This document shows positions 10,521 through 48,736 of a stretch of DNA of 64,000 bases, one piece after another. The position numbers and the translations under genes are program-made. The stretch covers positions 13,785,702-13,849,701 of the forward strand of contig OX579642.1 of assembly GCA_951230915.1 (NCBI GenBank). The letters run 5' to 3'. Source of the DNA: Antitrichia curtipendula. Lineage: Eukaryota; Streptophyta; Bryopsida; Hypnales; Leucodontaceae. A model generated the notes under the pieces. The model ran no database searches. It worked only from the letters and a program-made list of their open reading frames with translations, and had not been told where the DNA came from. Numbering within the stretch: the stretch's first letter is position 1; each line of letters begins with the position of its first letter.

Positions 10521-10744
10521 TCATTAAAACGAGACGATTTGGAATCTCATTTTGTTCATGATCCTAAATTTAGTATGCAAAAGAGTCCATTAAATTGAGA
10601 CAATTCAATAAAGTGAGACATGAATATGCCAATAGACTTATTAATTTAAGCATGTACATGAAATTGCTTACCAATTTTGGAGTAAAGACAATTCAAAGAT
10701 GATTTTAAAATTCGAAGTCTAACCACTTCAAAGTAAATATTGAA

Positions 10745-14554: not shown

Positions 14555-14651
14555 CCTGCAAGAAATATAACTGACATTAGTATATAATGGAAGATCAAAT
14601 CCACGAGTGCAAGATACATTATACACGAAATTCTAAAAATTCATTGCCAAA

Positions 14652-15665
14652 TTATCTTCGAGCCGAAGATATAAATTTATAGAATTCATCGTACAAGGAT
14701 ATGAAGTCCCTCACAAGGGTGAGTGAAATGCAGGGTGAGTTACCTGACTATCTGAATACCCTGAAATTCATTCATTCTATATAATATACATAAAGATAAT
14801 AACATGAGAATCATTCAAATCAAACATGTCACAGACGAATCAGTAAAATACTAAAGCGTAGATTATTACCATCTAAACGAACATAAACATCTAGAGAACA
14901 AGAGATATGATTCTATTCAAATGAATATGTCTGAAGTGATACCGCCAAAGACGATATCCAACCACCTCACAAATACTCAGAGTGAAAGGAAAGGATCACT
15001 TCATCATCGACCTGAAGATAACTAAAATGTCAATAAATTCAAAGAGTAATACATTCATTTTCAATTACCAGAACTCAAACCAAACACGCCAGCTAATACT
15101 TAAAAGAAGTATTATCCTCGATACGAAGATAAATGTGTATAGATCATTTACTAATGAATTGATTCAAATGATATATTTCAGGTCTTTGTGATGTATATTA
15201 CGAATTTGTAAGAGATACATATAAATGAATACTACCACGAATACCAGTTCTAACTCCGATTGGAGGATAAGATTCTTTGAATGCATTCAGAATAAATTCC
15301 AAACAAAAATTGGATAAATGTAATGAAATCAATTTGAAATAATTGATCTTTGACAATTTATCATCGACTCGAAGATAAAAACAAAAAACAGAAATTACGA
15401 GAATCTCTCCGAGAGTGAGGAAGAAGAATCCGGGTGTCCGTATTGGGAGAAAGTGAATCCAGTAATTACTAGTAACTAAATTATTTATCTTCGTGTCGAA
15501 GATAACTGTATGTACTCGAGAAAGTAAATTTGGCCTCTTCAAGTTTTACATTATTCTGATGTATTATCATAATGTGCATTATCATAAACTACTGACACTT
15601 ATCTTCGACCCGAAGATAAATAGAATAGGGATTGTTGTTCATGATTATTCTCGAGCCGAGGATAA
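14652..15665. repeat. Seven dispersed 21-bp palindromes in the leader intron of the DUF7869-like gene
   Basis: Each is TTATCYTCG, three variable bases, CGARGATAA. Copies start at 14652, 15001 (degenerate), 15112, 15358, 15485, 15599 and 15645. All lie upstream of the splice acceptor at 14556-14558, so probably in the 5' intron or leader region of the minus-strand gene. Spacer triplets differ (AGC, ACC, ATA, ACT, TGT, ACC, AGC) while arms are conserved, which argues for selection on, or recent spread of, the arms. The same motif clusters again at 25.8-32.8 kb. Confidence 0.9.
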
Positions 15666-15699
15666 ATATGATCACTCTTGCCCTGGTACTGACGTTCTC

Positions 15700-16475
15700 T
15701 CCGGATTCTTCGGCGTAAAAATAGGGGAGATCAAACCACGTGAAATTCGACACAGACCTTGGAATCTTTGGCGTCTGAGTGCTTACCGCTCAACACTATC
15801 ATTTGTAGTTGACAAATGGAGAACAAAAAACTGTACCTTGAACAACAATACGGTTTATAATCAAACAGATCTCAATGAAAGACACCAAACACAGAAACTT
15901 TGACAAGAAATACTGAAAAAAGAACCTGCAATTTACGAGAACTCAAGCGATACTAAGCCGCCAAGACACTACTAACTTCGCAAAGACAGAATGCTTTGAA
16001 AATGCACACGTTCAGAAGCCGCGCCGTAACAATGCATACAGGAGGCAAAGGAGGAACAAAAGACTGGAGACAAGAAATGAGGCAATATGGGAAGCTCACG
16101 AGAGAGAGACGAAGAAGAAAGTGGCGGGATGACTAAGCGGGAAGTTTGAACGTTCCAAAATTTCAGGAAGTAGGGGAGGAGTATCTCCCTACTTTGGGGG
16201 CGTTGACATTCCTATCCCGCAAGTGTTGATAACGGGTTGCAATGGAATCCAACGTTCCACCGACCTCTATTCTTATAAATAGGCGAACTTTTACCATCGA
16301 AATTATTGCTAGCCGACTCTTGTCAGGGAATGAGGTATTTACAGAAATACTGCCACATGACATTTGTCATGGAAAGTAAGATTTTTTTGAATGGAATCTC
16401 ACGTGCAGGAAATCCCTTACTTTAGAAATCGATTTCAGTGAAATAATTTTAAAAATTGTTGAACCTGTAAAGGTG
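15700..16475 (-). promoter_or_regulatory. Probable leader/promoter region of the DUF7869-like gene
   Basis: Less AT-rich than its surroundings and free of 21-bp palindromes. A TATAAATA element at 16269-16276 lies in a nearly symmetrical context (TATTTATAA on minus), so it could serve either strand. Given the intron acceptor at 14.56 kb and no gene to the right, a minus-strand promoter is the likelier use. The transcription start and first splice donor cannot be fixed from sequence alone. Confidence 0.4.
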
Positions 16476-16477
16476 CT

Positions 16478-16520
16478 TTTAGGGTTCAGGATTTAGGGTT
16501 TAGGATTTAGGGTTTAGGGG
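16478..16520. repeat. Short plant telomere-type repeat stretch
   Basis: About five TTTAGGG-like units (TTTAGGGTTCAGGATTTAGGG and following). It is too short for a relict telomere. Read on the minus strand it gives AAACCCTAA telo-box motifs upstream of the 11.7-14.6 kb gene, which in plants can act as promoter elements. Confidence 0.7.
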
Positions 16521-16739
16521 GCTCATGGTATAGGAGCAAAAGCTATGCCACCAAAATCTCAAAATAGTGAAGCTTGGTCAACAAAAATAATCATAAGGAT
16601 TTGAATTTACAAATTATAAAATTATTTTGTTATAGATTATATTTTGGACTATATATGAATAGATTGATTCATTTCATTTGGATTAGTATGGATAAGATGT
16701 AGAGCATCTTGGTCAGGACAGTTATAGCGTATTTTTTAA

Positions 16740-17375
16740 CCCCTAAATGCCCAAGGCCTGTTTTGAGCTGCTTGAAATTTGCTCTAAATTGAACAAAATG
16801 CCAACATTTTGATAAGTTGTATCAATTTTTTTTGAATTATAACCGTACAAATTCAACCTAGACATGTTAGAAATCTCATAGGAAAAAAAAACACAGCAAT
16901 ATCACTTATGGAATGAATGATTATAATGTTTGACTATGAGGGTGTTAAAATTGCACAAATCTTTCAATCCTCTTTTCACAAGTCAAATCTAAAAAGTTGG
17001 TGACCAAAAAAATATGATGTTAAAGGGCCTAACATGTATAACCCCAATCAATTTATGGCTTCTTAAAATCTACTCTATAACTTTTTTAAATGAATTTGAA
17101 TGTGATTTTTTCTCCAAGATCTAGTGTATTTGAGGCTCATTTCCAAGAGCTCTCAACACTACGGGAAGTCAAGATTGCAATGGGTACCCTTGCACAAAAT
17201 CTTGAGTAGAAAAATCACTATCATTTACTTTCAAGATCAGATTTTTAATGCTGAAACTAGACTTCAAGAAGAACTTTCCAAAAATATAAACTATTAAAAA
17301 TAGCAACTTGGTTAGATTTTATTTAACTTCAAAGTTTTGCAAACACCAGATTTGGGTGCCTCGGGCATTTAGGGG
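16740..17375. mobile_element. TTAA-flanked MITE-like element, 636 bp
   Basis: Inverted ends read CCCCTAAATGCCCAAGGC on the left (16740-16757) and CCCCTAAATGCCCGAGGC from the right end on the minus strand. TTAA flanks both sides (16736-16739 and 17376-17379). TTAA duplication and C-rich first bases are as in piggyBac-type elements, but the superfamily is uncertain. The interior is AT-rich and non-coding. Confidence 0.72.
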
Positions 17376-17379
17376 TTAA

Positions 17380-18850
17380 AGAACATCATATTGAATCTAT
17401 TTTTTAGCTTTCAATTCAATCCTTCAATCTAATTTCTAGAGTAATTCAAAGTGTATAGTGGAAAAATTTAATGTTGAGCATTCAAATTCTTATTATCATG
17501 TTTAGTAAGGTAAGAAAACCGAAGCTTGTTTTTATTAAAATAATTATAAAATAATGAACAAAATACAATTCTGGATGAATGGACACAAAAATTATTTGAA
17601 TCAATAGAATAAATTATAAATTAATTTGTGCCTTCAAATACATCTTCAACTCTCGAAGCTTTAATTATTTCTAGTTCTTAGTTTTTATTAAAATACTATC
17701 TTTGTGGGTGAAGGAACACTCAAATTATTTGAAACAATAGTTCTCTTGGCACTTTGTGTGTCTTCATTTTTTGGCCTCAATTGTGTGACATCATGAATCT
17801 ATTGATTCCTTATTTATGTTGTGGTTTCATCTAATGACTTCAGTCGTTTGGCCACAGAATTTTATAGTGAAGCTATGTCTTTATTTCATAGCCTTAGTGA
17901 AATGGCCTCAAAATTCTATTGCCTAATCTCGTATATTTGTCTTTTCACAAGTTGTATAGCATACATTCGGCAGTACACTGATACATATTACCATATATCA
18001 ACTAAAACAATTCCAACCTATGTCAAGTACATTGGAAGATATTTGCATTTAAAGTGAATTTTTTTTTTCCATCTTCCTACAATAAATTATAAGACTTGAA
18101 TACTCTTTAACTTATAATTTATGCAATTGAATTTGGATTTTGAATTAATTTTTTTTAATGGAGACATGAATTGATAATTTAGCCTCTACAGGACCAAGGC
18201 CATTTTGGGGGTCAAAATCACTCGAAAATGTCATTTCTATTGCATTCATCCAAAAAAAAATTTGTTTTAAAGAATCTAATTGTAAGATCTTGTACTTCGC
18301 TTCTTTGAGATCGTGTGGTGAAAATTGCATAAAGTTTGACTATACAAATTGAAGATTATCAGCATTTGAAGTTCAAAACTCTTTTTATTTTTAACATTGA
18401 CCTGCAACTGTAGATGACTTTGACTATTATTTCTGGAATTTTTTAGACGAATCTAAACTTTGAATTAAAAAAACATTGTGGTAAATAATTGATTTGATAG
18501 TCTTGGAATATTTTTAAAAAAAACACGCATTTGATTTTCATTCTTTAAAAAATTGTTAGGTAGATGTAAGTGTAAGATCGAAAGAAAAAATAAATTATTA
18601 ATAGCTCAAAGATGGGCTCTAGATGCACAAAGAAATAGCTGGGGATTTTCACAATTTTTTTATTTCTAGACTGCTCCAAAGTCCAGAAATAGTTAAATGT
18701 GGCATGATTGAAACACAATAATTTCAATGGTATTACTAAGATTGTTTTAGCAAACAATCTTAAACTTTTTAAACAATTTTCTTGAAAAATTATAAAAAAT
18801 TTCATTCAAAATGAATCCTCCAAGTTAATTTTTTAAGAAGATGCCTAAAT
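17380..18850. other. AT-rich repeat-derived sequence; no gene
   Basis: No coding signal. Blocks around 18480-18850 match 5820-6120, including ATTTTTTAAGAAGATGC. A plus-strand frame at 17821-18057 has no recognisable domain and is not called. Confidence 0.5.
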
Positions 18851-18854
18851 AGCC

Positions 18855-20586
18855 CTTTAACCCCTGAAGCCCCAATGGTCCTACTAGGGTCAAAATGCGA
18901 CTTTGAGTACTAGGCTCATACGGTTTCAATATTCATTATTTACAAAAAAAAATTCTGAAGCTAGAAAAACACACAAGTTTCTTGGCAATATGATTTTTAT
19001 TTCAATCAGTGTCCGGAAATAGAAGTTATTGCACAAAAAGTAAAAAATAGAGGACAGCTGCCAAATAGCCCCCAAAAAATCACAAAAAATCAAAATAATT
19101 TAAAAACAATTTTGTAACACATTATAATTTTTTGAATTATTTTGTTCACGATGTAAAAATTTCTAACACATTAATGTAGAACTCCTTAACACATTAATAT
19201 GTAAAACTTCTTTAGTTAACACATTATGTTCTTGATAAAAATCCTTTTGTCCAACTTTGAATGTGAATTCCTAAAAGACCAAAGTGTGTTTTTTCGCAGC
19301 ATAGCGATTTTGGGCAACTCACTACGAATGGAATTTATATTTTTTTTCTTTGAAATTTTCATACAACACGTGCTCGAGGAGTACCTTAAAGGCCCAACAA
19401 TTTTCATAACTTTTGACTACATGGTTAAAAAGTTATTGCATGATATGTCATTTTCAGTCCTTGGCGGGCAGCACGGGCAGCAAAAAATAATTCTTTATAA
19501 ATCACTTCTTAAGAAAATAAAAATTTGAAATTGGTTAATCAGATTTATATGTACATAGAAAGCTTTGAATCATTCCATTTAGATCTATGGGTCCAAAACT
19601 ATGAGGATTCTTAGTTTAAGGGTAGTTATGCAATCTCAACTCTAAAATAAACTTTGAAGTCCTTTATTAAACTCAGTTTTCAATTTTTTTGAAAAAAAAT
19701 AAAAACATTGGGTGTACATTGTTTATTACAACATTACAACCGTTGGGATTGGCATTTTTCAATGCCATAAATAAATTCTTCAGAAATTAGTATTTAGAAT
19801 CATTTTCTACTTCTTTGTACTTACTATTTTTTGTCAATTCAAACACTATTATCTTGCAATCCACATGGTGGAGAATTCTGAAATTTTTTCCACATCTTCT
19901 TAAACAAGTTTACTACAAGATCCTATAGTTACATGTGTCCAAAAATGTTTTTTTTTCTAAAATTTGGCACTAGTATTAGAAATGGCAGTTTTGGAGCGTT
20001 TCTGGTGAAAACATACTAGTCAGAAATATGTAAGAGTTAACATCTTCCAATCCGTATGGAAAATTTTGATGAAATTTTTCTCACATGACTTTAGACAAGT
20101 GAAGTATACAATCCTATGGTTAGATTCTAAAAAAATGTCTTTTTGCTGTCTTAAGTGAATGCAACGCAAATGGCAATTTTGAGTGTTTAGGGCAATAAAA
20201 TAACCTTCGGGCTTTAGGGATTAAACAAGATTGTCCTTATCCTTTTCATCACCAATCCTATTTGAATAAATTTTATCAATTTATATGAAGAAGAAATATA
20301 ATATTTATGAAAAAACATAATGACTAATAAATATGACATAAGTCATAATTATTATGACTTTCTGCGATTTTTTCTGCATTGCCCATTAAGTTTAGTTTTA
20401 GGCTTTTTGTGGTATGACTTTTACTCCCGCGCACCAACCGAAATAAAAATTATATTTCCACAAAGCTAATAAATGTTTCTATTTGCTCAGAAAGTTTTGA
20501 AAATTTTCACCAAAAATGGAGGCCATAGGAACCGAACCAAAATCTACTTTATCCCCTAAAGGGACAATGGTCCTTTAGAGGTTAAG
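18855..20586. repeat. Composite element with long inverted ends
   Basis: The left end reads TTTAACCCCTGAAGCCCCAA. The right end, read on minus, begins CTTAACCTCTAAAGGACCAT. About 200 bp inside each end is similar in inverted orientation (both include a diverged GAAATAAAAATTAT-type block). A copy of the 9.9-10.5 kb repeat family (about 19262-19830) and a block shared with 34435-34625 lie inside. A further terminus-like TTTAGGGATTAA at about 20214 indicates nesting. No transposase frame is visible. Confidence 0.55.
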
Positions 20587-20589
20587 AAA

Positions 20590-22330
20590 AATTAATTGAA
20601 AACAAATATATTCATTTTTCAAAGATCTACAAAAATGTAATCTACAAGAAATAAATTTTATAAAAATTATTTCAAATTAATATTGTGATTTATTTATTGC
20701 TTGTGGTTGACTACTTTGAGCTTTGTGCAGCAAAATTATTGCAATTTTATTAAAAACTATATTTACAAAATAAAATTTCAAAAAACTTGTTCCCAAAATT
20801 GAGATAATAGGATTTGCACGGAACCTTCAATTGTCACCCAATGAGACGCTTGGGACTTGAGGGGTTATGGAGTTAATCAAAATAGAATGAATACAAACCT
20901 TTTGAACAAACATCAATCCATGTAATAAAATACAAAAATTTAGTGAGTTTTTTAAAGTAAATTTACTAAGATGATGACTTTGGAATGTAAATTGAAAAAA
21001 TCTTATCATTTGCAGTAATTCCCTTTTTGAATGTTTTTGTTTATAATTGTGAAGAAAATACTTTTAGTTTGTATTTGTTTAAGTTCATTGTTTCGTTCCT
21101 TATTTTTGCAAGAAGGTGATCTATTTTGTCAACCATTCTTCAGATTCTCACATTTGTGTCATTGTGTGAGGATTGAATTTCTACTGCCAAGGTCTTCAAA
21201 GCTAGAAAGGGTCCCAAAATTTTCATTCTTCAATATATAGAAAATAAGGGAGCTCTAAATTCAATGCCTATTTTTATACCATTAAATAAAAATGATAGTA
21301 CAACAATTGAACATACATTTTATATAAATCAAAATGTTGTTTTGTTAATAATTTAGTATGAATTTGATTATGCCATCTGCGAAAGGTTACATCTCTTCGT
21401 GTTTATGGTTTTGATTTTTTTTGCATGATATGTATATTTGAATGTTTTGTAGTTTATTCATGTATCTCTCATCACTTTCATATTGAATTCCAAATATATT
21501 CACAAAATAATTTTATATAAGATACATGAAGATATCATATTAAAAATGTAAAATCATGTGGAAGCCATTGACTTGGGCACGAAGGTGGATCATACTTTAG
21601 GTTGCTTAAAGGTCTTCAAATTATTAATTTGATTCGTGGTAAATAATATTATTAAATCCAATCATTAAACATAGATTTTTATTAAAAGCCACTATTCATA
21701 CCAAGTCTTTTTGTAAATATTCATGAGTTTGATGCAATTTTATTCTTGTAGAATTTGTTCTCCTTACATCCATAAAAATGTTATTATTTTCACTTTGCCT
21801 TCCAAACAATGTAGTACTTCACAAGTTATGATGATAATAATTAAAATGCCGAAAGCAATGAATTTGAGAATTAGGTGAAGTGCATATTTTCATATCAAAT
21901 GACAATGTTGAAATGCATGGAATGCCTTTTATGAATCTATTATTGCATTCACATGACTATTTGATTGATATTATAATGGAAATTTAATCACTTGTCATGC
22001 ATCTAGAATCTAAGACAAACAAATCTTTTATCTATTACAAAATCACATGAGCATTACATACTAGAGAAGACTTCGTCTATGCAATAAAATTAAATTTTTG
22101 TAATTATAGCATTAAGTCATTCAAATGAATTTGTGTGTCATAGCTTTTGCTCCAACAATTAACAAGGTGACAAAACAATTTATTTTTCGAATAACCGACC
22201 CGTTGTTCAATGGTTAAAAAATTTCAAACACCAAAATATAAAATAATTCACTTCATGAATGAGTAAATAACTGGACTTGGTACTTGAAAAAACGGTTTAG
22301 TATGGGTATTGGAGGAAATTAGTCAGTAAA
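20590..22330. other. AT-rich intergenic; no gene
   Basis: No convincing coding region. Another terminus-like block (GGGACTTGAGGGGTTA) is visible near 20850-20866. The rest shows no structure I can name. Confidence 0.5.
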
Positions 22331-23035
22331 ACTAAAAACTACAACTTGCCGAACACTCGTGTGGAGAAGGAACTTAAAATTGCAACTTTGGGGTCCCGGA
22401 CTACAAGTTCGGAACTGGTCCGGGAGGTCAACGCAAGGCCGGAGGAGGTTTGGATAGAGGTTCGGTTACAGGCCTGGGAGGTTCGGGAAGAGGTTTGGTT
22501 GCAGGCCTGGGAGGTCGTCACTCCCGTTTGGCGGCGCAGCTTCATTTTCCGTGACTTTGCAGGTTGTTCTCGTTAGTGGCGCGAATCACTAGGTTGTTGG
22601 GTCGATTCTTGAGTGTCGTTGTTGAAGTTCAATTACTCGTGTGCTTCAATCTCTAGGTTCTTGGATTTCGAAGTCTCTGTGTGTTGCGCGAGAAGTGTGG
22701 TGCGTGAGAAGCCACCGAATTCGGAGAAGCTTGGTTCCTCGATCCCCACGGTGCATTCTCCAACCACACGTTGTCTGCGATTTGGGGTGTGCGCCACTTG
22801 TTTGTGGGTTTCGTGTGCTGCGCGGAGGAGGTTGGTGTTGGTGTGCTCAGTGTGCTGCGCGGTGTCGGGTAGAGAGGAGCGCGCTTAGGGAACACACGAG
22901 GTGTCTGGCTGCAGGTTGTGAGTGTAGATGAAAGGTAAATAGCAAAACTTGAATCTTCACTTAATCTTTTCTTCAATCTTCGCTTGATCTTCACTTCAAT
23001 CTTTCGTTGACCTATCATGTGGTGGTTCTATAGGG
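22331..23035. other. GC-richer island with a 33-bp tandem repeat; gene not recognised
   Basis: Noticeably richer in GC and CpG than its neighbours, with open frames on both strands but no identifiable domain. A repeat with 33-bp period (about 22457-22515) contains GGCCTGGGAGGT twice. It could be a decayed promoter or first exon of a gene or retroelement. I cannot choose. Confidence 0.35.
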
Positions 23036-24350
23036 CCAAAGATAAGGGTGTGTTATAAAAACAAGGCCTCGGACGGGTAAAACGGGACGGCCAAACCACG
23101 AGTTGGCCGTCCAAAAGATTGGCTCCTAAAATCAAACCCACGGTGACCAGGAAGCGCCTTTCACCGGTGGGAACAACAAATAAGATCAACCATGTGGGCC
23201 ATTAACCCCACTTCGTCGCCACAAACACGAAAAGGAGCGCTTACTGGATAACCACGGCTCGCAACAGGTTTACAATGCAGAAATTGAATTGCAACTAGCC
23301 TCCAAATCCGGCTAGGAATAACAGAAATGAAAACGAACCACAAGCCACAACACACTGGAGACCCTCAAAGCTCCTCAAATCTTCATCTTCAAGTCTTCAA
23401 GTCTTCAAGCCTTCACATCTTCAAAAATATCTTCAAAACTCTAAAAGAACTCCAACTTCACCCTCAAACTACCTAAACTCCACTCAAAAAAAGAAGGCAG
23501 CAGACCTTCCTATGCTTCCATATTCATAACTTTTGCATTTCTTCTTCAAATTAAAAGATTGATAGCTTTTCTGAGAGCTAACAAAACTTCCTATCACTCC
23601 TACAACTTTCAAGTCATTCCAAAACTCTGTCCAACTTCTATGACCTCTCAAAGTTTCGGTCCATATATGGTAAAAACAAGAGACTCTCTCACCTTCCCAC
23701 ACTTACAACTCACTCATAAATGCACCAAATTGAATGAATGATAGCTTTATAAAAAGCTAACAACATGTACTACACTCCATCGAAGTTTCATTTTAAACAA
23801 AGGACCTGTCTGTTTTCTATGGTCGGTCGAAGTCTTAGCCCCTCTTCATAGGAGGTAGCAGACCTCCCTCCACTCAAACAAGCATAAATCTCAACTTGCA
23901 ACTTCAAATAAAGCAAGAGAGAACAATTTGGAAAGCTAACAGTATGATAAACAACTTCTTCAATTTTCATTACCAAATTCCAAAAACCCAATACACCATG
24001 AGCTTCCAAACACTCGGTTCCCCCAAAACAACATTGGGAGAGAAGATGAATAGTGTCCATCTTTTCCTCCCCTTTTCCAACACCTTTTGCCCCACCTAAA
24101 CAAGTGTACATCAGCCCTTAACTCCCTCCTAAAGTCAACTTACACCTAATGGCCTTCATATTTGGCCCCACATCTATATCTTTATCTTTAACTTAGAAGG
24201 AAAATCACTTCAAAGTCCAAACTATTTCCATTCTTTCCTTCTACAACTATAACCAAACAAAATAGTTTCAACAAAATACTTCAAATATGGATTGAAGTAC
24301 TAACATTAAACCAATGCCTATTAGAGGTAAAAAACTAGAATTCCAAGACT
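23036..24350. other. Unidentified repeat-like stretch with CTTCAA microsatellite
   Basis: Contains a perfect 9-bp inverted repeat, GACGGCCAA (23086-23094) with TTGGCCGTC (23103-23111). A run of CTTCAA-type units follows at about 23376-23450. Two similar blocks begin TGATAGCTTT (about 23561 and 23739). The look is of an LTR or retroelement fragment, but no TG/CA ends or target duplication were found and no protein is recognisable. Confidence 0.35.
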
Positions 24351-24354
24351 AGTT

Positions 24355-24813
24355 TTACTCCATCTGCAAGAACTTGAGAATGCGCTTGATAGTCGCAGCG
24401 ATGTAATCAACACGACCCGCCTTCGTTAAAGGATTCATTGGCCCTTCTAACCAACGATGGTGACCACGACTTCCTTCAGTAGGCTTCATCATACAGTAAT
24501 ATTGATCGACGTTGAGACCTTCGAAACATCCTTCAAATGTCACATCTCGACTGCCAGGCTCAACACATCCAACCTGCAACAAAATCATCAGTGCTCGAGC
24601 GTCACGTTGAAGATTCCCGTGCCCTTGCCGCTCCACACGAGGTTGCTTTGGCGGACGAGAAGGCCCAGCTTCTTCTTGTGGACGCTCATGCGGCGGCGCA
24701 AGACTTAGTGGCAGAAGAGATTGATCCGGTAGTTGTGACAATGAAAATTCAAATCCAGGCTCCGATTCTACTTCTTCCTCTTGGGACTCTGAAAAAACCC
24801 TCCAGTTCGACAT
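24355..24813 (-). CDS. Small hypothetical protein, about 152 aa
   Basis: An uninterrupted frame starting at MSNWRVFSESQEEEVESEPG. It has an acidic start, a Pro-rich basic middle (ERPQEEAGPSRPPKQPRVER, about 40-60) and a C-terminal half with hydrophobic-plus-polar patterning ending ATIKRILKFLQME. I recognise no domain. A possible TTTTGTTGCAG splice acceptor lies inside the frame near 24574, so the exon structure could differ. It lies divergently about 1.7 kb upstream of the ParB-like gene and might belong to the same unit, but it carries no 21-bp palindrome. Function unknown. Confidence 0.45.
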   Translation of the reverse strand: MSNWRVFSESQEEEVESEPGFEFSLSQLPDQSLLPLSLAPPHERPQEEAGPSRPPKQPRVERQGHGNLQRDARALMILLQVGCVEPGSRDVTFEGCFEGLNVDQYYCMMKPTEGSRGHHRWLEGPMNPLTKAGRVDYIAATIKRILKFLQME

Positions 24814-24849
24814 TTTGACTATAAAGTGGAAAATTAATATCACTAATGG

Positions 24850-25839
24850 ACTTCAATGAAACTCTAAAGCAAAGCCGTCCTTTTAAATAGATAACATGTA
24901 CCTCCACGAAACGTCATCTTGAAGTTATTCAACAAAATAGCGTCACCATGAAGCTATTCAACAATACATATTATAATATGTTTTTGTACTATGAACAAAT
25001 TTACAACAGGACAGCGGAGAAGCTTCGCGGCGGTTTTCACTTTCTTCTGCAAGTTTGCGGTTGCAATTGCGCGCTTCTTTCTCCTAGGTTGTGAGTTCTC
25101 TACCTCATCTGTATTGCTGTATTGGTCATGATATTATGTAAATGCTCTTGTGTTAGAATTGTTTGGGGTGTTTAGATGCAAGTGAAAGTTCGTTGTCAAA
25201 ACTGAAGCTACAGATTTAAACTTTGAGCAAACTTGCTCAGGCTGGGGTGTATGTGTTGATGCAAGAACGATCGATTTGCTCCGATGTAACGAACTTGATT
25301 ACGAACTTTGAGCGAACTTGCTTGTGCTGTATCTGTTGATGCAAGAATTTTGTTTGTTGCGTGGAGAAAGTACTTGCTCAGGGTGTAGGGGTCACTGCAT
25401 AAATTCGGATTGTGGCTAGCCAGGGTTCATTCCTTTTGATGCTAAGGTTTTGAGGTTTAGGGTGACTTCACAAGCTTGTTGTTTTCAAGATTTTCAACTT
25501 CATTACTGTGTTGTGTTTCTTCAATGTGTGGTTTAGTTTTCACTAGTTTCTGTTACTTGTTCCTTGAATTCATGCAGTGTTTGTCCAAGTTCTCGTGAAA
25601 TGTGACATCATTTCTAACGATCTAAGTCTTCTTATGTGCAGATTTTGTAGTGCACAACACTTGAGTTGCGATTTAATTTTGTGTAGACGAAGCAGTCGAA
25701 GATAAGAAATTCCTGCTTCCAAACTCTATCAGTCTTTTTTGTTTGTTTTTGGTAGTTCACATCATGCAATAGTTTTGGGTAAGAACTTAGGGTTTTGAAC
25801 TCGATATTCACAATCTAAAACCGTCACACCTGTTTGAAA
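24850..25839 (+). promoter_or_regulatory. Probable promoter/leader region of the ParB-like gene
   Basis: About 1 kb of non-coding sequence upstream of the palindrome array. A more GC-rich patch at about 25010-25090 could be a 5' UTR. The coding exon begins only after a splice acceptor at 26478-26484 (CTACTTGCAG), so transcription should start here and the leader intron should span the palindrome array. A palindrome half-site (CGAAGATAA) is seen at 25697-25705. Confidence 0.4.
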
Positions 25840-26107
25840 CCATGCTGGAGCCGGAGATAATTATCTTCGGACCGAGGATAATCGTGCTCGGACCGACGAT
25901 GGTTATCTTCGTCTCGAGCATAGAGATGCTGGAGCCGGAGATAATTATCCTCGGTTCGAGGATAATCATGCTTGGACCGGTGATGGTTATCCTCGGCACG
26001 AGGATAATTGTGCTCGAACATAGTTATCCTTGAGCCGAAGATAACTATCACCAGTCCAAGCATGATTATCCTTGAGCCGAGGATAATTATCTCTGGCTCC
26101 AGCATGG
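25840..26107. repeat. Head-to-tail array of 21-bp palindromic units
   Basis: Units follow each other every 21 bp, starting at 25840, 25861, 25882, 25903, 25924, 25945, 25966 and 25987. One shortened unit (26008-26023) follows, then 26024, 26045, 26066 and 26087. Alternate units are near-consensus (TTATCYTCG, three bases, CGARGATAA); the others are diverged versions such as CATGCTGG AGC CGGAGATAA. The last third is inverted relative to the first, so the block is also a large imperfect palindrome beginning and ending in CATGCTGG/CCAGCATG. It lies about 390 bp upstream of the ParB-like coding exon, probably inside its leader intron. Confidence 0.92.
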
Positions 26108-26206
26108 GTGAAATCCTCATATACATCAGAAACTACAAACACAATATCCAAAGACAATCCGAACCATTAAAAACCCAAACCAAAATACAAAACAACACAA
26201 ATAATA

Positions 26207-26444
26207 TTATCCTCGAACCGAGGATAAATATACAGGTCCGCAGAAATACATACTAATCACGGGCGACAACAACCATGATATATAATGTAAGTAACCTAAG
26301 GCAAGGGATGACTATCCTCACAAAGAAGATTATCCTCGGGTCGAAGATAACCCAAGGCAATGTAGATTCTCCTAAAAGAACACAATCTACCGTAGAAAAC
26401 TGATGAGAAGGTTGTTACGACAATTATCCTCGGACCGAAGATAA
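26207..26444. repeat. Three single 21-bp palindromes upstream of the ParB-like exon
   Basis: Copies at 26207-26227, 26330-26350 and 26424-26444, with spacers AAC, GGT and GAC. All lie before the splice acceptor that precedes the ATG at 26497, as in the leader of the 11.7-14.6 kb gene. Confidence 0.9.
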
Positions 26445-26496
26445 TCCTACAGAAAATCGCTAACGTGATGTTCCACTACTTGCAGATTACCTCAGA

Positions 26497-29400
26497 ATGG
26501 AAGGGAAAAAGGAATATGACTACTCAACCACAGCCCCGTTTCTCGAGCCATTTAACAAATGGGCGGTGGAGGATCCATTCATATTCGACATGCCGGAGGT
26601 CTACGGGGAGCTCTGGCAATTCAAGCCCATTGTCGACTCATGGACCTTCGGAATAAATCTGTCAAAGGACTACGTACTTCTCCGCTACAGGGTGAAGAAT
26701 TCAGGAATCTACGTGAATTGGAACCTGGACGAGAAGGTCGCACTCGTGGAGCTCCATCAGGAGAAATTCATTGTCCTAACACTTCATGCGTGCGATCCAT
26801 CTGGAAAGGAAACAATGCACACGCACTCCATTGTCATGCATGAAGAAGACGATGTGGGAGCATTTGATCTGGACAACCTCATAAGGGGTTTGCACGAGGG
26901 AAACCACGATGAACTGGCGGACGAGTTCCAGCAGAGATTCCATCCATGGATACGTAAGAGCGCCATCTTCATGGCAAGAAGGATTGGATACATGTTCAGC
27001 AGACTGAAGGAGTATGCAAAAGATCATGTAGACAGGCAATCTCGACTCAGCCTGGGACGTGGACAAGTGAGATGCAAAGCAGATACCGAAACAAAGTCCA
27101 TTTCCGGGGCACGTGCCCGAACTGGGAGCAGAGGAAGTGGAAGGGGAACAACGCGAGCACAACTCCCAAAACGGAAGAACCCGGAATCGGAGATCTCTGC
27201 GGCCATTGAGAAGCGCCAGAAACCCGTGGCAGACAGTCGGGTAGTAACTGTTGGAAGTTCAGGATCCGCGCTAACAAACGTACATAACGGAAAGACGGGC
27301 GAATATGAGCCCATCCAGAAATTTGAAGTGGTAGGCGCATACCAGAAAGATTTATGGGAGAAGCACGCGTCATGTTTTATTTTTGATCCCAGTACATACA
27401 AGGTGAACATCTCCAAATGTCACTTGGCACCTCCACGATACATTATCCGGAAATTGGAGATGAAGATTGTGGAGGAAATGAAAGAGACCCTTATCCATCT
27501 AGGGTCAGTCCAACAAAGGCAACTAATATGCTTGACTCCGATTGACGCCAACAAAAGGCTCCTCAAGGAACGTCCATCCAAGTGGGACGATATTAAGGAA
27601 GGAAATTTCTATATTATTAATGGCCAACATAGCATCACCGCCTCCAAGATGCTGCAAAGTGGAGGATGTTGCGAGTCTCGGAAGGTGGAGTTGCAGACGT
27701 GGGATGCAATGATCGTCTACTCGCTTGACTCGAGGAAGCTGACCGAAATATCGAAGTGGTACAACTCCTCAAATCACCTCGTTCATAGTCAGCCAACATG
27801 GGGGAACCAGATTTCGGCTTGCAGGCAGGTGTGGAAGGAACTGAAGCGGCCAACTAATGTTGAACGAGAAGGACTGGCAAGACTGAACAAGGCCATCTTC
27901 AATCCAACTGTTTACAAGGTATGCTATGTTTTTTCATTTATCTTCGAGGCGAAGATAAACTGTGTGTAGCAATGGTAGGTAATGAAATGGTGCATTGCTT
28001 CTGCCTTTTTATGTATTCGTAGAACACCGTCAAAAGTCATGCCTACGTTTATCCTCGGGTTGAGGATAACTTGCTCTCCTCTATTGTCTAGGAACTGACG
28101 ACTGTTTCAATGACAATATTGCTATGCAGGAATTTGTAGACGCTGTTTTGATACGGTATTGTAGCATAAATCCGGACAAAGAAGGAGCTAAGGTGAAACT
28201 CGCGTCGGATGTGAAGAATGAAATTAGAATCATAACATTGGCAGATGAGACATACCAGTTGTGGGAGGAGTTCCTCCGGAAACACACTGACGGAGAACTG
28301 GTGGATCCGGTGACGTGTACTGAATACAAGGTTTCCACAAAAAACTTCAATCCCAAGAATTTCTTGCTGAAGCGAGAGTTCTTCAAGCACATGGGGCATT
28401 TTACGGACAAGGATCTCAAGGAATATGTCCTCCATCTGCTTGGACGAACTAAGGGGCGCAAGTGCGATTACCCAAAAGTCTCCATGGCTGCTGCAAGGAT
28501 TTTGTGCGTGGACAACTATAAGGCCGAGCACTGGGTGGAGCGTAGGAAGCGCAAGAAAATCGTGATGGAAGAGTTCATGGCCATCGACAAGTCCTTGAAG
28601 TTCAGGGACTCACAAGGAGAAGTGATCGATGAGGTATGGAGGAAATGGAAGCGCACGAACAAGTTCACTTCCGCTTCGTGGGATTTTCTATTGACTGCCC
28701 CGCCCAATTCGTTTTTTGTGAAGCGTCTAACCAACGAAGCAAAAAAGAAGTCAGCCGTTGACTTTAAGGACCACCCAAAACTGTCCGTTGTCTATCCCAT
28801 CTTCAAGAGCTTCTTGAAGTTGAAGAAGCAAATCGCGGGAACGGATGGCAATGTGTACATCCGGGGGCACCAATGCTATCCACAGGCTCTTGTCACGAGC
28901 CACGATTGGCCCTACCAGAATAGAGAACTAAGGCTCGCTGTCGTAGACTTCAGAATCCTGCCCAGACCGAGAGCTGGATCCAATGACGGTCCTCCCTGTA
29001 CTCCACTGCTCAATTACTTGGCTGCTCATTTGAAGCCCGTAATTACTACACCAGACGCCTGGTTATGGATTGTGGGAAGTCAATACGACTTGGAGGCGAC
29101 CAAGAAATTTGCTGCTTTGCGGCTCAAGGGCTACGAAGTCAAGGTTTCAACCTATCAGCCCAGCAAGGCTGAGAGGTTGGACAACACGACAACACGAACC
29201 ACGCCTTCCCTGGTGAAGCTTGTGTTTGTGTTGAAGAAAGGGACCGATGGCGAGCCCAAGAATGCGGATGCAGTGAAGAGAGTCTACTCCACGGACGACA
29301 TTCCATACTACAAGGAATTCCAGAAGAATACGGAGGCCAAATATAGGATCCATGCCAACGAGCTGAGGATGGAGTTCTACATTGACATTCTTCATAGTTT

Positions 29401-30073
29401 CTGTGTGAAGGGAGAGAACGTCATCGGCATCTACACGGGGTCGAAGTTCATGATTGCAGCGAAGGTATAAAACTTACTCCTGCTATCCTCTATCCTCGTG
29501 CCGAAGATAACACTTTGAGTTCGATGGTTATCTTCGGCATGAGGATAACCATCCATGATCAATAGTTAGCCTTGGTTGTGGAATAGGACTTCAGTATCAA
29601 TGCGGATCTCGTAGCTGATCTCATATATCTTCCCTTCATCGTAATTCCTGAACATTTATCTTCGGCTCGAGGATAAATGTGCTGGAGTTTGTCTTCGGTT
29701 TAATGTGAGAATTGGATACTAAATTGTCTTGTTGGTCTTGCAGATGTATGGCCTCTTTTATTATGGGATTACCGAGCGGCATATATCTGAGAAGCATCGG
29801 GAGATGGCGACGTTCGGCAAGTCCTTGGACATCAACGACTTCTGCCATGAGAATTCGCCATACCTCCCAAGATATGAACGTCCAAGCAACCTATCAACAC
29901 CGGAACTAGATTCCGTGTCCACACCGTCCTTAGCGGATCCCATTGAAATTGCAGAGAGGAATGTCGACTTAGGTGGTCACAGTGGTGCCTTGGAACTTGG
30001 GATAAATGAGTTCGGGACGAACACTGATATGGTCGGCGGCGACAACCTGGAGGTTATTATATCTGGTGTCTAG
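26497..30073 (+). CDS. ParB-like plus methyltransferase-like protein (three exons, 1028 aa to first stop)
   Basis: Exons 26497-27918, 28130-29464 and 29744-30073 join through AAG/GTATGC...ATGCAG and AAG/GTATAA...CTTGCAG sites, all in phase 0. A leader acceptor lies just before the ATG. Residues about 200-230 are basic and NLS-like (PKRKNPE). A ParB/sulfiredoxin-like block follows: NFYIINGQHSITASKML at about 370-386, where the family's GxHR is GQHS. The end of exon 2 and start of exon 3 resemble N4/N6 DNA methyltransferases. There is a strand with VVDFRIL where DPPY is expected, DAWLWIVGS, and FCVKGENVIGIYTGSKFMIA where DPFxGSGTT is expected. Both catalytic motifs are missing, so if the fold is right the domain is probably inactive. 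Bacterial and phage proteins combine ParB and methyltransferase domains; a plant version is unusual. The TAG at 30071 may be a mutated Gln codon, since the same frame stays open beyond it. Confidence 0.65.
27919..28129 (+). other. Intron 1 of the ParB-like gene with two 21-bp palindromes
   Basis: GTATGC donor and ATGCAG acceptor give a 211-bp phase-0 intron. Palindromes lie at 27938-27958 (TTATCTTCG AGG CGAAGATAA, a perfect arm match) and 28049-28069. Confidence 0.8.
29465..29743 (+). other. Intron 2 of the ParB-like gene with three 21-bp palindromes
   Basis: GTATAA donor and CTTGCAG acceptor give a 279-bp phase-0 intron. Palindromes lie at 29490-29510, 29528-29548 and 29656-29676. Confidence 0.8.
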
Positions 30074-31119
30074 GTGATGAACCGGTTGCCCGAATCGACC
30101 CCGCCATCAGTTGAGGAAGAGGTAGAGGACACGGCGCAGGTGGAGGTGATGGTAGCGGCAGAGACGAAGAAAAGAGTGAAGGGCAAGATGCCCATTGAGG
30201 GGTCAGTAGCCATACACGATTTGAGTGAACTCGAGGAGTCGTACTCGAATCTGAATGACATTGAATATGGGGATGCGGAAGCTGACGAGGGGGGGCCATC
30301 AAGTGCCAACAACGAAGTAGAATCTGCTTTGGAGCTGCAACCTAAGCCTGCTGCGGAGTACTCTGCACATCCAGTTCAGGGTCAAACAGTTCTGCTTCTG
30401 GTGAAGCAAGAAAACAAGGACTTTTGGAAGGAGAGGGCGGAGAGAAAGGCCCTGAAGCGGGCAGAAGAGGAAGCCAGATGGGCAGAGCAGCAGTTGGAGA
30501 AGGACATGTTGAAGGCGGAACTAGAGAAACTCAGGAAAGAGAATGACTCTCTCAAGACAATGACGCAGGACCCGTCAGTCTCTCGATCCATTCAGCAGAT
30601 GAGTTCCGGATCTCCACAAGGCTCCGTTCAGAAGTCGACTTCCGCCAACACCCAGCATTACCCTCGAGGCGAAGATAATGCGGCTTCACCTTGGGACCAT
30701 GTTCGGCGAACAACCTCGACCGATATCCCGAAGGATCTTCGGGTCGAAGATAATGTTGTCTCTCATCCTACCTTGGAGGAGGACAGTACCAGACCCACGG
30801 CTGCTGAATCTGTACTACCGGATGTTCGACGGGAGGAACAAGGGCATGACGAGATCCCGGACCAGCAAGACCTGATGCTGAATTGGGTTATCTTTGATGC
30901 GAGAATAACTTGAGCCGGCTCGCTGATATCGAACTCCAAGGGGAGTCAGTGCCGGAGACGCAAGAGGAAGGTGAGATTCCAGCGGATCCGGTACTGCTTG
31001 CAGTTGCCTCTCCGAACCACAATATGGTCATTGAATTCGAGAATCCGCCTGACGAAGAGGAGAGCTTGGACTACGGGGGTTACATGGACGAAGAAACAAC
31101 CAACGTCGATGTCGGTCAG
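30074..31119 (+). pseudogene. Acidic, coiled-coil continuation of the ParB-like gene
   Basis: Directly after the TAG at 30071 the same frame stays open for 279 codons. It encodes an acidic low-complexity part (EEEVEDTAQVEVM) and a coiled coil (about 30404-30560; WKERAERKALKRAEEE, EKDMLKAELEKLRKENDS). A Ser/Pro-rich tail follows, containing two exonic palindromes. A one-base shift between about 30753 and 30888 and a TGA then break it. Coding resumes in a neighbouring frame (LADIELQGESVPETQEEGEI) up to CAG/GTACAG at 31119/31120, a phase-0 donor whose acceptor is at 31650. The quality of the frames on both sides suggests this was once one protein with the upstream gene. Role unknown; coiled coils usually mediate self-association. 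Confidence 0.6.
30658..30908 (+). repeat. Exonic 21-bp palindromes encoding a recurring heptapeptide
   Basis: Copies at 30658-30678, 30733-30753 and 30888-30908 sit inside coding sequence. The first two are read from their second base, giving YPRGEDN and DLRVEDN. The third gives YL-stop-CENN in the frame that continues downstream; its TGA is one C-to-T change from CGA (Arg). A degenerate fourth copy at 33645-33665 gives PSRREDI in the same phase. Of the three possible phases on the plus strand, only the first would produce a stop (the final TAA) from the consensus. Confidence 0.8.
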
Positions 31120-31650
31120 GTACAGTCTGTCGCATCTTCAGATCCCTACGATTATTCATGAGTCTGTCCATTGGGATGTAATGGATGTTCGTGTTGTGGG
31201 TTTCTCATGAGGGATCTCTTATGTCGATTCATTCTGATTGACAGGAGGGAATGGGCAGTCTCTGATTGTTTGGCGTCGACAAACTGCTCTCTGTGACTTC
31301 GTCTTGTAGGATAGTGTACATACTCAAGCGAAGTGTAGTGAATACTGTAACCAAATTGGATAGTAACTCATCAAAACCGGTAGACCGGATGTATCTTAAT
31401 TACTTGAGAAATATATATACGGGACACTCTGCTTTCGGTGAATTTCGTGTCTAATGGATTCATTTTGACCATGCTTGTGCTCAGCGCAAAAAAAATATGA
31501 GTGTGCTTTGACCGTTGCCACTCAAACTACCATTTACTGGAGGGGTTCTGCAGTCGCTTAGTGGAATTAAGTACTGTTCGCCGTTTTATGAGTCACCTGA
31601 TTCCGCATTTCAACAAGTAACTACATATCTTTTCTGTTTTGTTTGATCAG
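31120..31650 (+). other. Intron between the acidic and phosphatase-like exons
   Basis: Donor CAG/GTACAG and acceptor TTTGATCAG/GAAGTA are both in phase 0 with the flanking frames. The 531-bp sequence has no 21-bp palindrome, unlike the other introns of this locus. Confidence 0.65.
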
Positions 31651-32493
31651 GAAGTAGCAAGGAAGCGCAGAGAGAGAGTGCCGCGAAGTGTGTCCACGCT
31701 AGTTCCTCAACCGCGGCAGAAGTGGTTGAACCTCGTATTTGATTTGAACGGAGTACTGTGTGAGTGCTTGTTTCAAAAGTCATTTTTGAAACAACGGCAT
31801 CACACAGTGCACGATAATATCTTTTCCGATCAAATCCCCACTATCATTGATCCCAAGGCCGTCTTCGTTCGTCCCAACATGAGGGAGTTCTTAGACGAGC
31901 TTTCTAGGATCACGAATCGCATTGTAGTCTGGAGCTCCATGTTGAAGAAGACTGTGGAACCTGTCGCTGGTTTCCTGTTCCAAAACAACAAGGCGCCCTT
32001 CGATATCCTAGGCCAAGAACAGTGCAAGACGATAGAAGTGTCCAAAGGGCAACACCTTAAACAGATTGGGAGCCCTTGGAAGTACCTGCTTCTCAAAGTG
32101 CTTGAAGAGCAATTGTTCTAAGACCCGGATGATCCAACGTCCTTTAACAAGGACAACACTATTCTCATTGACGACTCTCCGCAAAAGAGCATCCTCAATG
32201 AGAACGGGAATGCGATATTCCTTGAGAGTTGGAATCATGAGATCCATGGGGACAAAGTATTGTTGGGCAGTTTAGTTCCGTGGTTGAGACGACTTCATGA
32301 GGAATGTCCACTTGGTTGCTTGCGCGAGTTCGTTGATGCGAACCGCATTGGCGTGCCCCCCTTGTCTCTTGAGTCCCATCATGCGTATGGACTGTTAGGT
32401 GGCATGAAGGAGTCCGCCAATAATTTTGGGTCCCGTTTCGTCTTGCCGGGAATGAAACTAGTGATTGAGCCAGAGAGACGTAGGAAGAAATAG
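31651..32493 (+). pseudogene. FCP1/NIF-like phosphatase domain, interrupted by one stop
   Basis: After a phase-0 acceptor the frame encodes a HAD-type FCP1 homology domain, related to RNA polymerase II C-terminal-domain phosphatases. Motif 1 is LVFDLNGVLC (about 31735-31764). The DxNG form, with Asn for the second Asp, is common in plant NIF-like proteins and casts doubt on normal catalysis. Next come VFVRPNMREFLDEL and IVVWSSMLKKTVEP (motif 2 area), then ILIDDSPQKSILNENG (about 32161-32208, motif 3). A TAA at 32119-32121 lies between motifs 2 and 3, and the same frame continues cleanly for 124 codons. TAA is one C-to-T change from CAA (Gln). As it stands only a truncated domain could be made. 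A basic tail (EPERRRKK) ends the frame. Family call from motifs is strong. Confidence 0.75.
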
Positions 32494-32804
32494 TACTTCT
32501 GCTTATACTCGTCGATCGTAGAAAGCGTTGTACATAGTGTGAATACAAATTATTATGTAAATTTCATTCATGGGTATTAGTAAAATTTTGAAGTTTCATG
32601 TTTTGATTCCATGTTTTCTCTATGTTGAGTTATCTTTGGATCCAGGATAAGTTTTGCTCTTTGAGATCTTGTTGTTTTTGGTTGGAGAATAGTTGTGGAG
32701 GCTTTGTCTTATCAATGAATTGAAGATATTAACTATGCAAGTAGTTTGTTATCTTTGGACCGAGGATAAATTGTGTAAGGTTATGTACTCTCCGTTTTCT
32801 TCAG
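32494..32804 (+). other. Likely intron or spacer with two 21-bp palindromes
   Basis: Palindromes at 32630-32650 and 32749-32769. A strong acceptor (TCCGTTTTCTTCAG) ends at 32804. The matching donor is not certain: the phosphatase-like frame ends in TAG at 32491, and a phase-0 GTGATT at about 32460 is one candidate. AT-rich compared with the flanking exons. Confidence 0.5.
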
Positions 32805-33750
32805 GTCGGAGGGTCCGTATTGCACCTGTTGCAACAGAGACAACCGCTCACCACTAGGAGCTTGTTGTCTGGATCGGATGCACCCATGTCTAAGAAATCC
32901 GAGTCGGTTGAAGGGAGCTTCTTGCCGTTCTCTTATCCTAGGCCTTCTCTTCTGGGCTCTGCAACCGACGCGGCTTCCGCAGCCATTGACTTCTCCAAGG
33001 GGAATGTGGAAGAAGGCGTGGTCGACAGCCCACCGAGTAGAGGATCATTGAGGACCCCGATTTGCTCGCCTTCACCTGTGAAAAAGAGTGACTTCATTCC
33101 TAGTCGATTGTGCTCGCAATCGCCAACTTTACGGACTTCAAACACCCCACACAGGAAACTATATGTAGATGAAGAACACCAGGCAGTGGATCCTCACCTT
33201 GAAGATGGTTTAAAATCACATGCAGCAGTTGCATATCACCCTCTACAGGGTGATGATTACAATACAGATTCGACAAGAGGAGGTTGCAAGAGGAAGGTCC
33301 CATCCGGTGCATGCAATGCAGATCAAGTCCCGCGCATTGCAGAGATTATTGGCTCCATTCCTCCGAAATCCGTGGGAGGTGGATCTTCACCTTCTGGAGT
33401 ACCTATATCCCACCGAACAACTCTTCGAAACTTTCGAGGGTCAAATTACACACGATCAACAACAACTGCTGATTTGTACATAAGTACTACCAATAGACCA
33501 TTTCCAAGGCCGCCTTGTCGAAGTTGCAGGTCTCTTTCAAATGATGGCACAGGGCGGAAGTGAACGCAAGCAACGAAGAGAAGTGAAGGAACTAATGCTG
33601 ATGGGCATGTTTGGCCGTGTCCTTTCTGCAAGTGAAGATCCAAGGCCTTCTCGACGCGAGGATATCCTTAGAGGGTTGAGCAAGTTGAAAGCAGTAGAGG
33701 CTGCCAATGAAGCAGCAAAAAATTGTTCCTCCACCAAAAATGATGGCTAG
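32805..33750 (+). pseudogene. Ser/Pro-rich C-terminal region of the palindrome-linked gene, broken
   Basis: After the acceptor at 32804 a frame runs through a Ser/Pro-rich stretch (SKKSESVEGS; SPPSRGSLRTPICSPSPVKK). At about 33330-33370 the better frame shifts by one base to LLEYLYPTEQLFETFEGQIT. It then meets a TAA (33481-33483, one C-to-T change from CAA) and continues in the same frame to KAVEAANEAAKNCSSTKNDG. The region contains a degenerate palindrome at 33645-33665. No known domain; it looks intrinsically disordered. The decay matches the upstream segments, so I treat it as the tail of one broken gene or the last gene of the same unit. Confidence 0.5.
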
Positions 33751-34430
33751 TGGATTAGTTCCCTTTTGGAATGCAATGAATTTTGTATAGCATCCATTAC
33801 TATTAATAGAATATTCATTCACAAAATTTTTTTAGAAAAGGCAAAGGCTTCATGTGCACATGGCCTTCATATTTTTACACTATCATATTCAATCATTAGA
33901 ATTACGGCAGTGATTTTAGTTACTAGGCATTACGGTATATGTAAATGAGATAAATTGGTTCATATGTAGATGGGATCTCAAGTAGATTCATGTTCCTGAA
34001 CGTAAATTGACTACTTCACTTGTTATAAATGTTACATACTTTTTGACCACCCATTTGCAATTCCATTTTGCATTGTTTGAGCTTGTGCTTGCTCTAAGCT
34101 TTGACAAAATGTAACAAAAATTTATCTTCATGGCCATTTAAAAATAGCAATCTCTGGACTAACTGTTGGTAAGGGTGTCCATATTTATCTTTGCCTCCAA
34201 CAACTTATCTTTGGAAAGAAAGGACTTAGGTTCTCATACTGACCATTTCGTCTCATTTTAATGAAAATGGCCTTCCTATATGTTTTACAATTCCAAATGC
34301 TCTGAATTTTTTCATTCATGTAGCCACTTGCTTTGAAGAATGAATCCAAAGAGTAACCACCATTTTGGACATATTTTCATACCAATGTGACCTTGTGAAG
34401 TGCAACTGCCCGGATTTTCGAAAGGACAAG
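33751..34430. other. Intergenic; no gene recognised
   Basis: AT-rich 3' flank of the palindrome-linked gene. Weak TTATCTTTG half-sites near 34184-34215 may be the last traces of the 21-bp motif. Confidence 0.45.
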
Positions 34431-48580: not shown

Positions 48581-48736
48581 TATTCTTCAACATTTATAGG
48601 TCTTCATGTAACTAGTCCATATTCTTCAACATTTATAGGTCTTCATGTAACTAGTCCATATTCTTCAACATTTATAGGTCTTCATGTAACTAGTCCATAT
48701 TCTTCAACATTTATAGGTCTTCATGTAACTAGTCCA
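48581..48736. repeat. 39-bp tandem repeat, four identical copies
   Basis: Units start at 48581, 48620, 48659 and 48698, followed by a partial fifth. Each begins TATTCTTCAACATTTATAGG. Copies appear identical, so the array is recent or kept homogeneous. It lies inside the LTR-type insertion. Confidence 0.95.

Follow-up and report, generated by a model that had tools for sequence, protein, structure and literature searches.

A palindromic site array in giant DNA transposons of the moss Antitrichia curtipendula: a candidate ParB-parS-like system

The palindrome array and the element that carries it

Why should a 21-bp palindrome be strewn over two genes of unrelated appearance? The question is raised by a stretch of 64 kb from the moss Antitrichia curtipendula (contig OX579642.1, positions 13,785,702 to 13,849,701 of the forward strand), referred to here as the window, with positions counted from its first base. 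The palindrome reads TTATCYTCG, three variable bases and CGARGATAA. The two genes are arranged divergently and encode a DUF7869 protein (gene 1) and a protein with a predicted ParB-like fold and a phosphatase-like domain (gene 2). The window, we find, contains one copy of a family of moss DNA transposons of the cut-and-paste type that reach giant size (about 20-34 kb). That the palindrome is a recognition site of an element protein is well supported, albeit indirectly, by its conserved positions, its lineage-specific drift and its presence in elements resembling miniature inverted-repeat transposable elements (MITEs).

A scan of the window with up to three mismatches yielded 26 motif places, seven at 14652-15665 and 19 at 25861-32769, and none in the rest of the 64 kb. 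The initial annotation had reported about 26 palindromes in only two clusters, which this recount makes exact. Eleven of the 26 are perfect matches. Dinucleotide shuffles of the window contained 0.07 motif places on average and at most one. A motif-blind scan for perfect 9-bp arms separated by spacers of 0 to 8 bases peaked at a spacer of three with eight places, six of them the motif; every other spacer gave between zero and four.

The genome (400 Mb, 303 contigs) was searched for further copies, and the window copy (W) was compared with copies A, B, C and D and with a diverged element at 46.65 Mb of contig C4; the first two comparison loci both lie on contig C1. Homology between the copies begins at window position 10511 and ends at 34274. 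These limits coincide with 27-bp terminal inverted repeats, the left one at 10511-10537 (plus strand; AAGGCCATATTCATTAAAACGAGACGA, the same in copies A, B, C and D) and the right one at 34248-34274 (minus strand; one mismatch in the window copy), so that AAGGCCATATTCATTAAAAYGAGACGA is found in inverted orientation at both ends. The element is flanked by a 4-bp target site duplication, CCTA, at 10507-10510 and 34275-34278 (duplications and palindromes are given without strand). Such duplications occur in all six full copies, with CTGT, GAAT, AAAT and TATT in the other copies and CAAA in the diverged C4 element. The window copy is 23,764 bp long; copies A-D range from 19,965 to 27,831 bp, and the C4 element is about 34 kb. 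With up to two mismatches the end sequence is found at 436 genomic places, and among the 100 end matches listed many form, as judged by eye, facing pairs about 20-45 kb apart. The family shows the features of a cut-and-paste DNA transposon: terminal inverted repeats, duplications of constant length and a transposase with a predicted RNase H-like fold. A telomere-like tandem repeat (TTTAGGG, six units, 82% matches) lies inside the element at 16478-16519.

The two genes travel together. Of 47 DUF7869 copies, 29 have a divergently oriented gene-2 exon-2 match no further than 40 kb away; random placement linked 0.73 copies on average and at most 4 in 500 runs. The other 18 copies have no divergent exon-2 match, and with any orientation counted 32 of the 47 have one. 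Inverted repeats, duplications and linkage together confirm the proposal of the initial annotation that both genes are parts of one large mobile element, and the alignment of several loci that it had suggested produced both common outer boundaries and target duplications. Three contig sizes (46,150, 80,586 and 493,283) occur both among the DUF7869 relatives and among the exon-2 relatives in public data, none of them shared with the exon-1 list; this suggests, indirectly, that the genes are linked in other genomes too. Twenty of the 47 DUF7869 copies are located on contig C5 (37 Mb of the 400 Mb), possibly a sex chromosome or a repeat-rich region.

The exact palindrome occurs 825 times in the genome, and the motif read backwards does not occur at all. 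Sites were classified for the 50 of the 825 that were listed, all on contig C1: 33 lie in large elements, 17 in MITE-like elements (a class assigned by eye) and none elsewhere. The 33 comprise 13 in copy A, 14 in copy B, one in a copy at 1.29 Mb and five in an old copy (1.03-1.05 Mb) whose ends were not recognised. An even spread of the motif, with the two genes never associated, is the outcome that had been named as speaking against a link; it is excluded for the part seen. The MITE-like elements have three end types, with ends beginning AAGGCC or AAGGTC that are related to the element ends, and carry one to three palindromes each, of which one lies some 42 bp from an end. Seven were measured at both ends; six are 252-256 bp long and one is 378 bp, and six of the seven have a clean 4-bp duplication (the exception is L019).

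This distribution bears on the idea that a host transcription factor of the GATA or I-box-MYB kind uses the palindrome as a promoter site and intronic enhancer. The half-site contains, and ends in, GATAA, which we take to resemble the sites of such factors, and the palindromes are concentrated on gene leaders and introns. However, among the 50 listed sites none lies outside the element family and the MITE-like elements, and a host factor should need neither the fixed 3-bp spacer nor the joint drift of the sites in one lineage (see below). We consider a host factor improbable as the reader of these sites, and a host regulon was rejected on the distribution of these 50 sites. A viral origin was likewise rejected: the transposase and gene-2 exon 2, the two parts scanned (exon 1 was not), have no relative in IMG/VR. 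The single palindrome match in that database (L031; 251 bases) lies in GC-rich DNA and looks like chance.

The two genes and their predicted proteins

The coding exon of gene 1 (11711-14554, minus strand) has an intact frame of 947 codons plus stop and matches PF25273 with an E-value of 4e-45, in agreement with the intact DUF7869/DDE-like gene first annotated here. Upstream lies a leader region (14557-16000, minus strand; provisional 5' limit) that is probably a leader intron, with an acceptor-like CAG beside the ATG. The predicted structure has an RNase H-like fold whose best matches are retroviral integrases, Mos1, Metnase and Sleeping Beauty, the best Foldseek match having an E-value no better than 0.54. 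D445/D448, D570 and D610/D612, conserved in A1 and placed on the predicted fold, form a candidate DDD triad. The model strongly indicates a DDE-type transposase. Named relatives of the protein come from the mosses Ceratodon purpureus and Physcomitrium patens. DUF7869 was not found mentioned in the literature searched, and it would gain a function if this assignment is true.

The exons of gene 2 all lie on the plus strand. Exon 1 (26497-27918, 474 codons) encodes an N-terminal domain and a ParB/sulfiredoxin-fold domain (protein residues 297-432); exon 2 (28130-29464, 445 codons) ends in a stretch weakly resembling a degenerate motif I of N-methyltransferases; splice sites of both are inferred. 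Exon 3 (29744-31158; 3' limit approximate, taken from the frame of copy B) encodes a coiled-coil region. A further exon (31651-32493, start inferred) encodes an NLI/FCP1-like phosphatase domain (PF03031, E 2.4e-10). Exon 3 is open in copy B, whereas in the window a TAG (30071) and a gap of 13 bases (near 30857) interrupt it, and the phosphatase-like exon of the window copy has one internal TAA (32119). With two stops (30071-30073 and 32119-32121) and the gap at about 30857, gene 2 of the window is damaged while the transposase frame is intact. Beyond the phosphatase-like exon, an open frame of 272 codons (32745-33563, plus strand) is weakly periodic and has no Pfam match; its counterpart is longer in copies B (326 codons) and C (335 codons) and is broken in A and D.

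Both divergent genes are under purifying selection. For DUF7869 the ratio of nonsynonymous to synonymous substitution rates (dN/dS) is 0.12-0.32 between the window and the four copies; nine of the ten copy pairs give 0.12-0.31, and the closest one, B-C, gives 0.60 on few changes. For gene 2 the values are 0.11-0.20 in exon 1, 0.08-0.14 in exon 2, 0.11-0.53 in parts of exon 3 and 0.21-0.55 in the phosphatase-like exon.

Gene-2 exons 1 and 2 of the window have no match in Pfam or, by sequence, in the PDB, and the exon-1 profile gave only chance-level PDB matches; scattered weak Pfam matches among 41 relatives (best 'Tugs', two of 41 at E 3.6e-4) were taken as chance. The predicted structure strongly indicates that the protein starts with a ParB/sulfiredoxin fold, which bears out the ParB-like label given to it initially. 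Canonical ParB CTPases carry an arginine-rich nucleotide motif of the GxRR type. In the 22 aligned sequences the near-invariant motif is INGQHSI instead. As to a ParA partner, the open frames of at least 150 codons that the element has outside both genes (24355-24852 and 32745-33563) are without a Pfam match.

The methyltransferase-like label holds weakly at best. A comparison with E. coli YhdJ by hhalign aligned just the motif I stretch, at 0.4% probability and with differing residues, and none of the 41 relatives has a Pfam methyltransferase match. These results weigh against taking the palindrome as the substrate of this part of gene 2, in which case the array would be a self-methylation mark and not mainly a binding site. 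An analogy exists in algal relatives that pair ParB-like and DNA methyltransferase domains, proposed in the section of PMC12477816 that deals with them to modify their own transposon. The moss enzyme, however, may be dead, and we regard self-methylation as distinctly improbable.

Placement, drift and the likely binder of the sites

A full element carries 25-32 palindromes. In the window the first cluster (14652-15665) occupies the DUF7869 leader, with sites at 14652, 15001, 15112, 15358, 15485, 15599 and 15645. Nine sites fall in the gene-2 leader (25861-26444), the first four at 42-bp spacing. Intron 1 contains two (27938 and 28049, spanning 27938-28069), the first 19 bp past the donor, and intron 2 contains three (29490, 29528 and 29656; 29490-29676). 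The claim that the sites fill leaders and introns holds for most of them; it fails for three within coding exon 3 (30658, 30733 and 30888; 30658-30908), which translate in frame as (Y/D)(P/L)RxEDN, and for two past the stop of the phosphatase-like exon (32630 and 32749; 32630-32769).

The palindromes hold their places across five copies while the neighbouring sequence drifts. Invariant columns number 216 of 256 in the arms, 39 of 80 in the degenerate and spacer positions and 1007 of 1683 in other noncoding sequence, a comparison in which site picking favours the arms but not the spacers. In the 3' part of the element the arms are kept no better than their surroundings (28 of 32 versus 216 of 255).

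The diverged C4 element extends this observation. Its gene-2 exon 2 is only 44% identical, yet it has palindromes at matching places in both leaders, introns 1 and 2, the exon-3 region and the 3' part. Position 6 of these sites is C, and position 4 is often C as well. Position 6 is T in 66 of 131 sites of the window's subfamily and in none of 17 in the C4 lineage (P 3e-5); C/G at positions 4/18 is found in two of 267 half-sites of the former and 11 of 36 of the latter (P 1e-9). The extreme form, TTACCCTCG..CGAGGGTAA, occurs at 21 genomic places. Sixteen have a gene-2 exon-2 match no more than 5 kb away, in every case one of the 43-45% class, where about 0.06 would be expected (93 matches in 400 Mb), and their distances from it agree with positions in introns 1 and 2 and in exon 3; the other five have no exon-2 match nearby among the matches listed. 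In a third lineage (DUF7869 83%, gene-2 exon 2 57%), 11 of 16 sites carry T at position 6. As judged from these sequences, the site evolves along with the element lineage.

Traces of the array appear among public relatives. Translations of the palindrome were found in five of 21 exon-1 and four of 48 exon-2 relatives, mostly just past the donor, and practically never in shuffles. The third-frame pattern (two of 21 and two of 48, against 0.6 and 0.9 in shuffles) is near shuffle level and was not counted. The YPRxED frame is absent from all 48 exon-2 relatives. The fingerprint is also absent from 92 DUF7869 relatives, an uninformative result as their frames start below the leader.

Is the site read as RNA or as double-stranded DNA? 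A hairpin acting in splicing or small-RNA production could explain sites near the donors and acceptors of introns 1 and 2. The paired variable positions are nevertheless distributed as C-G, C-A, T-G and T-A in 37, 27, 33 and 35 cases (132 of 142 sites in five copies, which are not independent; P 0.30), and as 6, 6, 7 and 5 in 24 of the 26 window sites. On the plus strand C-A (27) is nearly as frequent as T-G (33). Sites also occur in a coding exon, past the coding exons and in MITE-like elements. Given arms without co-variation and three sites in a coding exon, a protein site is likelier than an RNA hairpin, which we rejected on the former ground and to which we give hardly any credence.

The copies have diverged unevenly. 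Among W and A-D, the palindrome-bearing segments and gene-2 exons 1-3 (14541-15900 and 26497-30600) are several-fold more diverged than the transposase (11711-14554), the middle (17379-22266) and the right end (31000-34200). Synonymous divergence is 0.03-0.15 in DUF7869 and 0.05-0.14 in the phosphatase-like exon, and gene-2 exons 1-2 (0.27-0.63) exceed both in each of the ten pairs. Copies B and C, the closest pair, differ by 0.03 per synonymous site in the transposase, by 0.04-0.05 in the middle noncoding blocks and by 0.07 at the right end; the palindrome-bearing parts reach 0.18 in the DUF7869 leader and 0.15-0.20 in the introns, and exons 1 and 2 of gene 2 have synonymous values of 0.35 and 0.27. 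W and C have in common a young intron 1 (0.049) flanked by old exons, which indicates that segments have been exchanged between copies. The protein and its sites look like an old allele pool that was shuffled into elements of recent spread. As a cause of the uneven divergence, hypermutation around the palindromes agrees less well than older alleles with the reduced proportion of transitions in exons 1-2 of the three pairs examined, though this does not settle the matter. In four elements (C4:28.86 Mb, C218:1.44 Mb, C10:12.56 Mb and C2:29.69 Mb) the transposase is 77-84% and exon 2 only 57-58% identical to that of the window, which is in line with unequal histories of the two genes.

Which element protein, then, would bind the palindrome? 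It could be an enhancer-like or subterminal site at which the DUF7869 transposase assembles a transpososome, kept by MITEs in order to move. The MITE-like elements of all three end types indeed consist of little beyond their ends and one to three palindromes, including the one about 42 bp from an end, and the transposase model has helices before the catalytic core that could bind DNA. In full elements, however, the palindromes are kilobases away from the termini, massed over the leaders and introns of the two genes; gene 2 and its surroundings hold 19 of the window's 26, and in comparisons of the same copies DUF7869 has diverged less than gene 2. We therefore rank the transposase second and consider a transpososome site possible but unlikely. 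The ParB-fold protein is placed first because its fold family is known to bind clustered palindromes, most sites lie in or around its own gene and the drift of the site tracks its clade. On balance we favour, with some confidence, a double-stranded site bound by a protein dimer that the element itself encodes, the ParB-fold product of gene 2 being the likeliest candidate; this would be a parS-like array in a eukaryotic transposon.

Based on these results we propose the following scheme. Dimers of the ParB-fold protein from gene 2 would occupy the 25-32 sites and, by spreading or bridging across the two leaders, could control the element's own expression. The bound protein might also mark element and MITE DNA as self, for chromatin protection or synapsis. 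The family would then possess its own ParB-parS-like system, in which the ParB-fold protein reads the palindrome over both genes, the system moves with the element, lineages have shifted their site preference, MITEs are known as self by one to three sites, and protein and sites form an old, shuffled module in recently spread elements. The chances that this picture holds in its entirety seem to us about even.

The remainder of the window contains features of other kinds. A reverse transcriptase fragment lies outside the element (40910-41458, minus strand; PF00078, E 1.3e-22), and the open frame 42806-43282 may belong to the same retroelement. A perfect 39-bp tandem repeat (4.2 copies) is found at 48579-48742, and a long open frame with cysteine-rich repeats of the NCGxCGxxC type runs over a 156-bp tandem array (54922-56232, minus strand). 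Rfam and tRNA scans of the window gave nothing.

Comparison with known systems

ParB-parS systems (ParB, Noc, KorB) belong to bacteria and plasmids; the present one would reside in a eukaryotic DNA transposon, in which no ParA gene was seen. The canonical ParB nucleotide motif was not seen in gene 2 either, and the palindrome is presumably unrelated to the parS sequence. If the proposal is true, a bacterial-type site-array system works inside a plant transposon, and we would understand how the giant elements of plants might achieve their own regulation or marking as well as control over their MITEs.

Accessory proteins that join ParB and methyltransferase parts have been reported before, in transposons of algae (PMC12477816). 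Sola1-1_Ec32 of the brown alga Ectocarpus, as described there, is a giant transposon of 21.5 kb whose accessory gene, with ParB-like and methyltransferase domains, lies on the strand opposite the transposase. The moss element is likewise giant and combines a transposase with an opposite-strand accessory gene that has a ParB-like part and a stretch weakly resembling a methyltransferase. It also has a palindrome array, MITE-like elements carrying the palindrome and a phosphatase-like domain, none of which the section on Sola1-1_Ec32 names for that element. The initial statement that no known element has this combination therefore does not stand for the pairing of transposase and ParB-like/methyltransferase gene; it stands for the site array, which was not found in the literature as judged on titles and abstract openings, a basis that does not establish its absence from print. 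The section of PMC12477816 on these accessory proteins does not name a target site. The likely target site of a ParB-like accessory protein is visible here, 25-32 times per element and also in MITE-like elements.

The Sola superfamily is described as having a DDD transposase and 4-bp target duplications, with some members over 15 kb and representatives in Physcomitrella (PMC10741241). The moss family shares the 4-bp duplication and exceeds the usual size of 2-9 kb given there. Compared by description, it fits the giant Sola kind in size, duplication length and accessory gene; membership would require a transposase homologous to those of Sola, and we do not file it as Sola. With two-component transposons such as PIF/Harbinger (compare PMC2836001 and PMC2213677) it has in common two element-encoded proteins and MITEs with the same kind of ends; it differs from them in its 4-bp instead of 3-bp duplications, its other proteins and its internal palindrome arrays.

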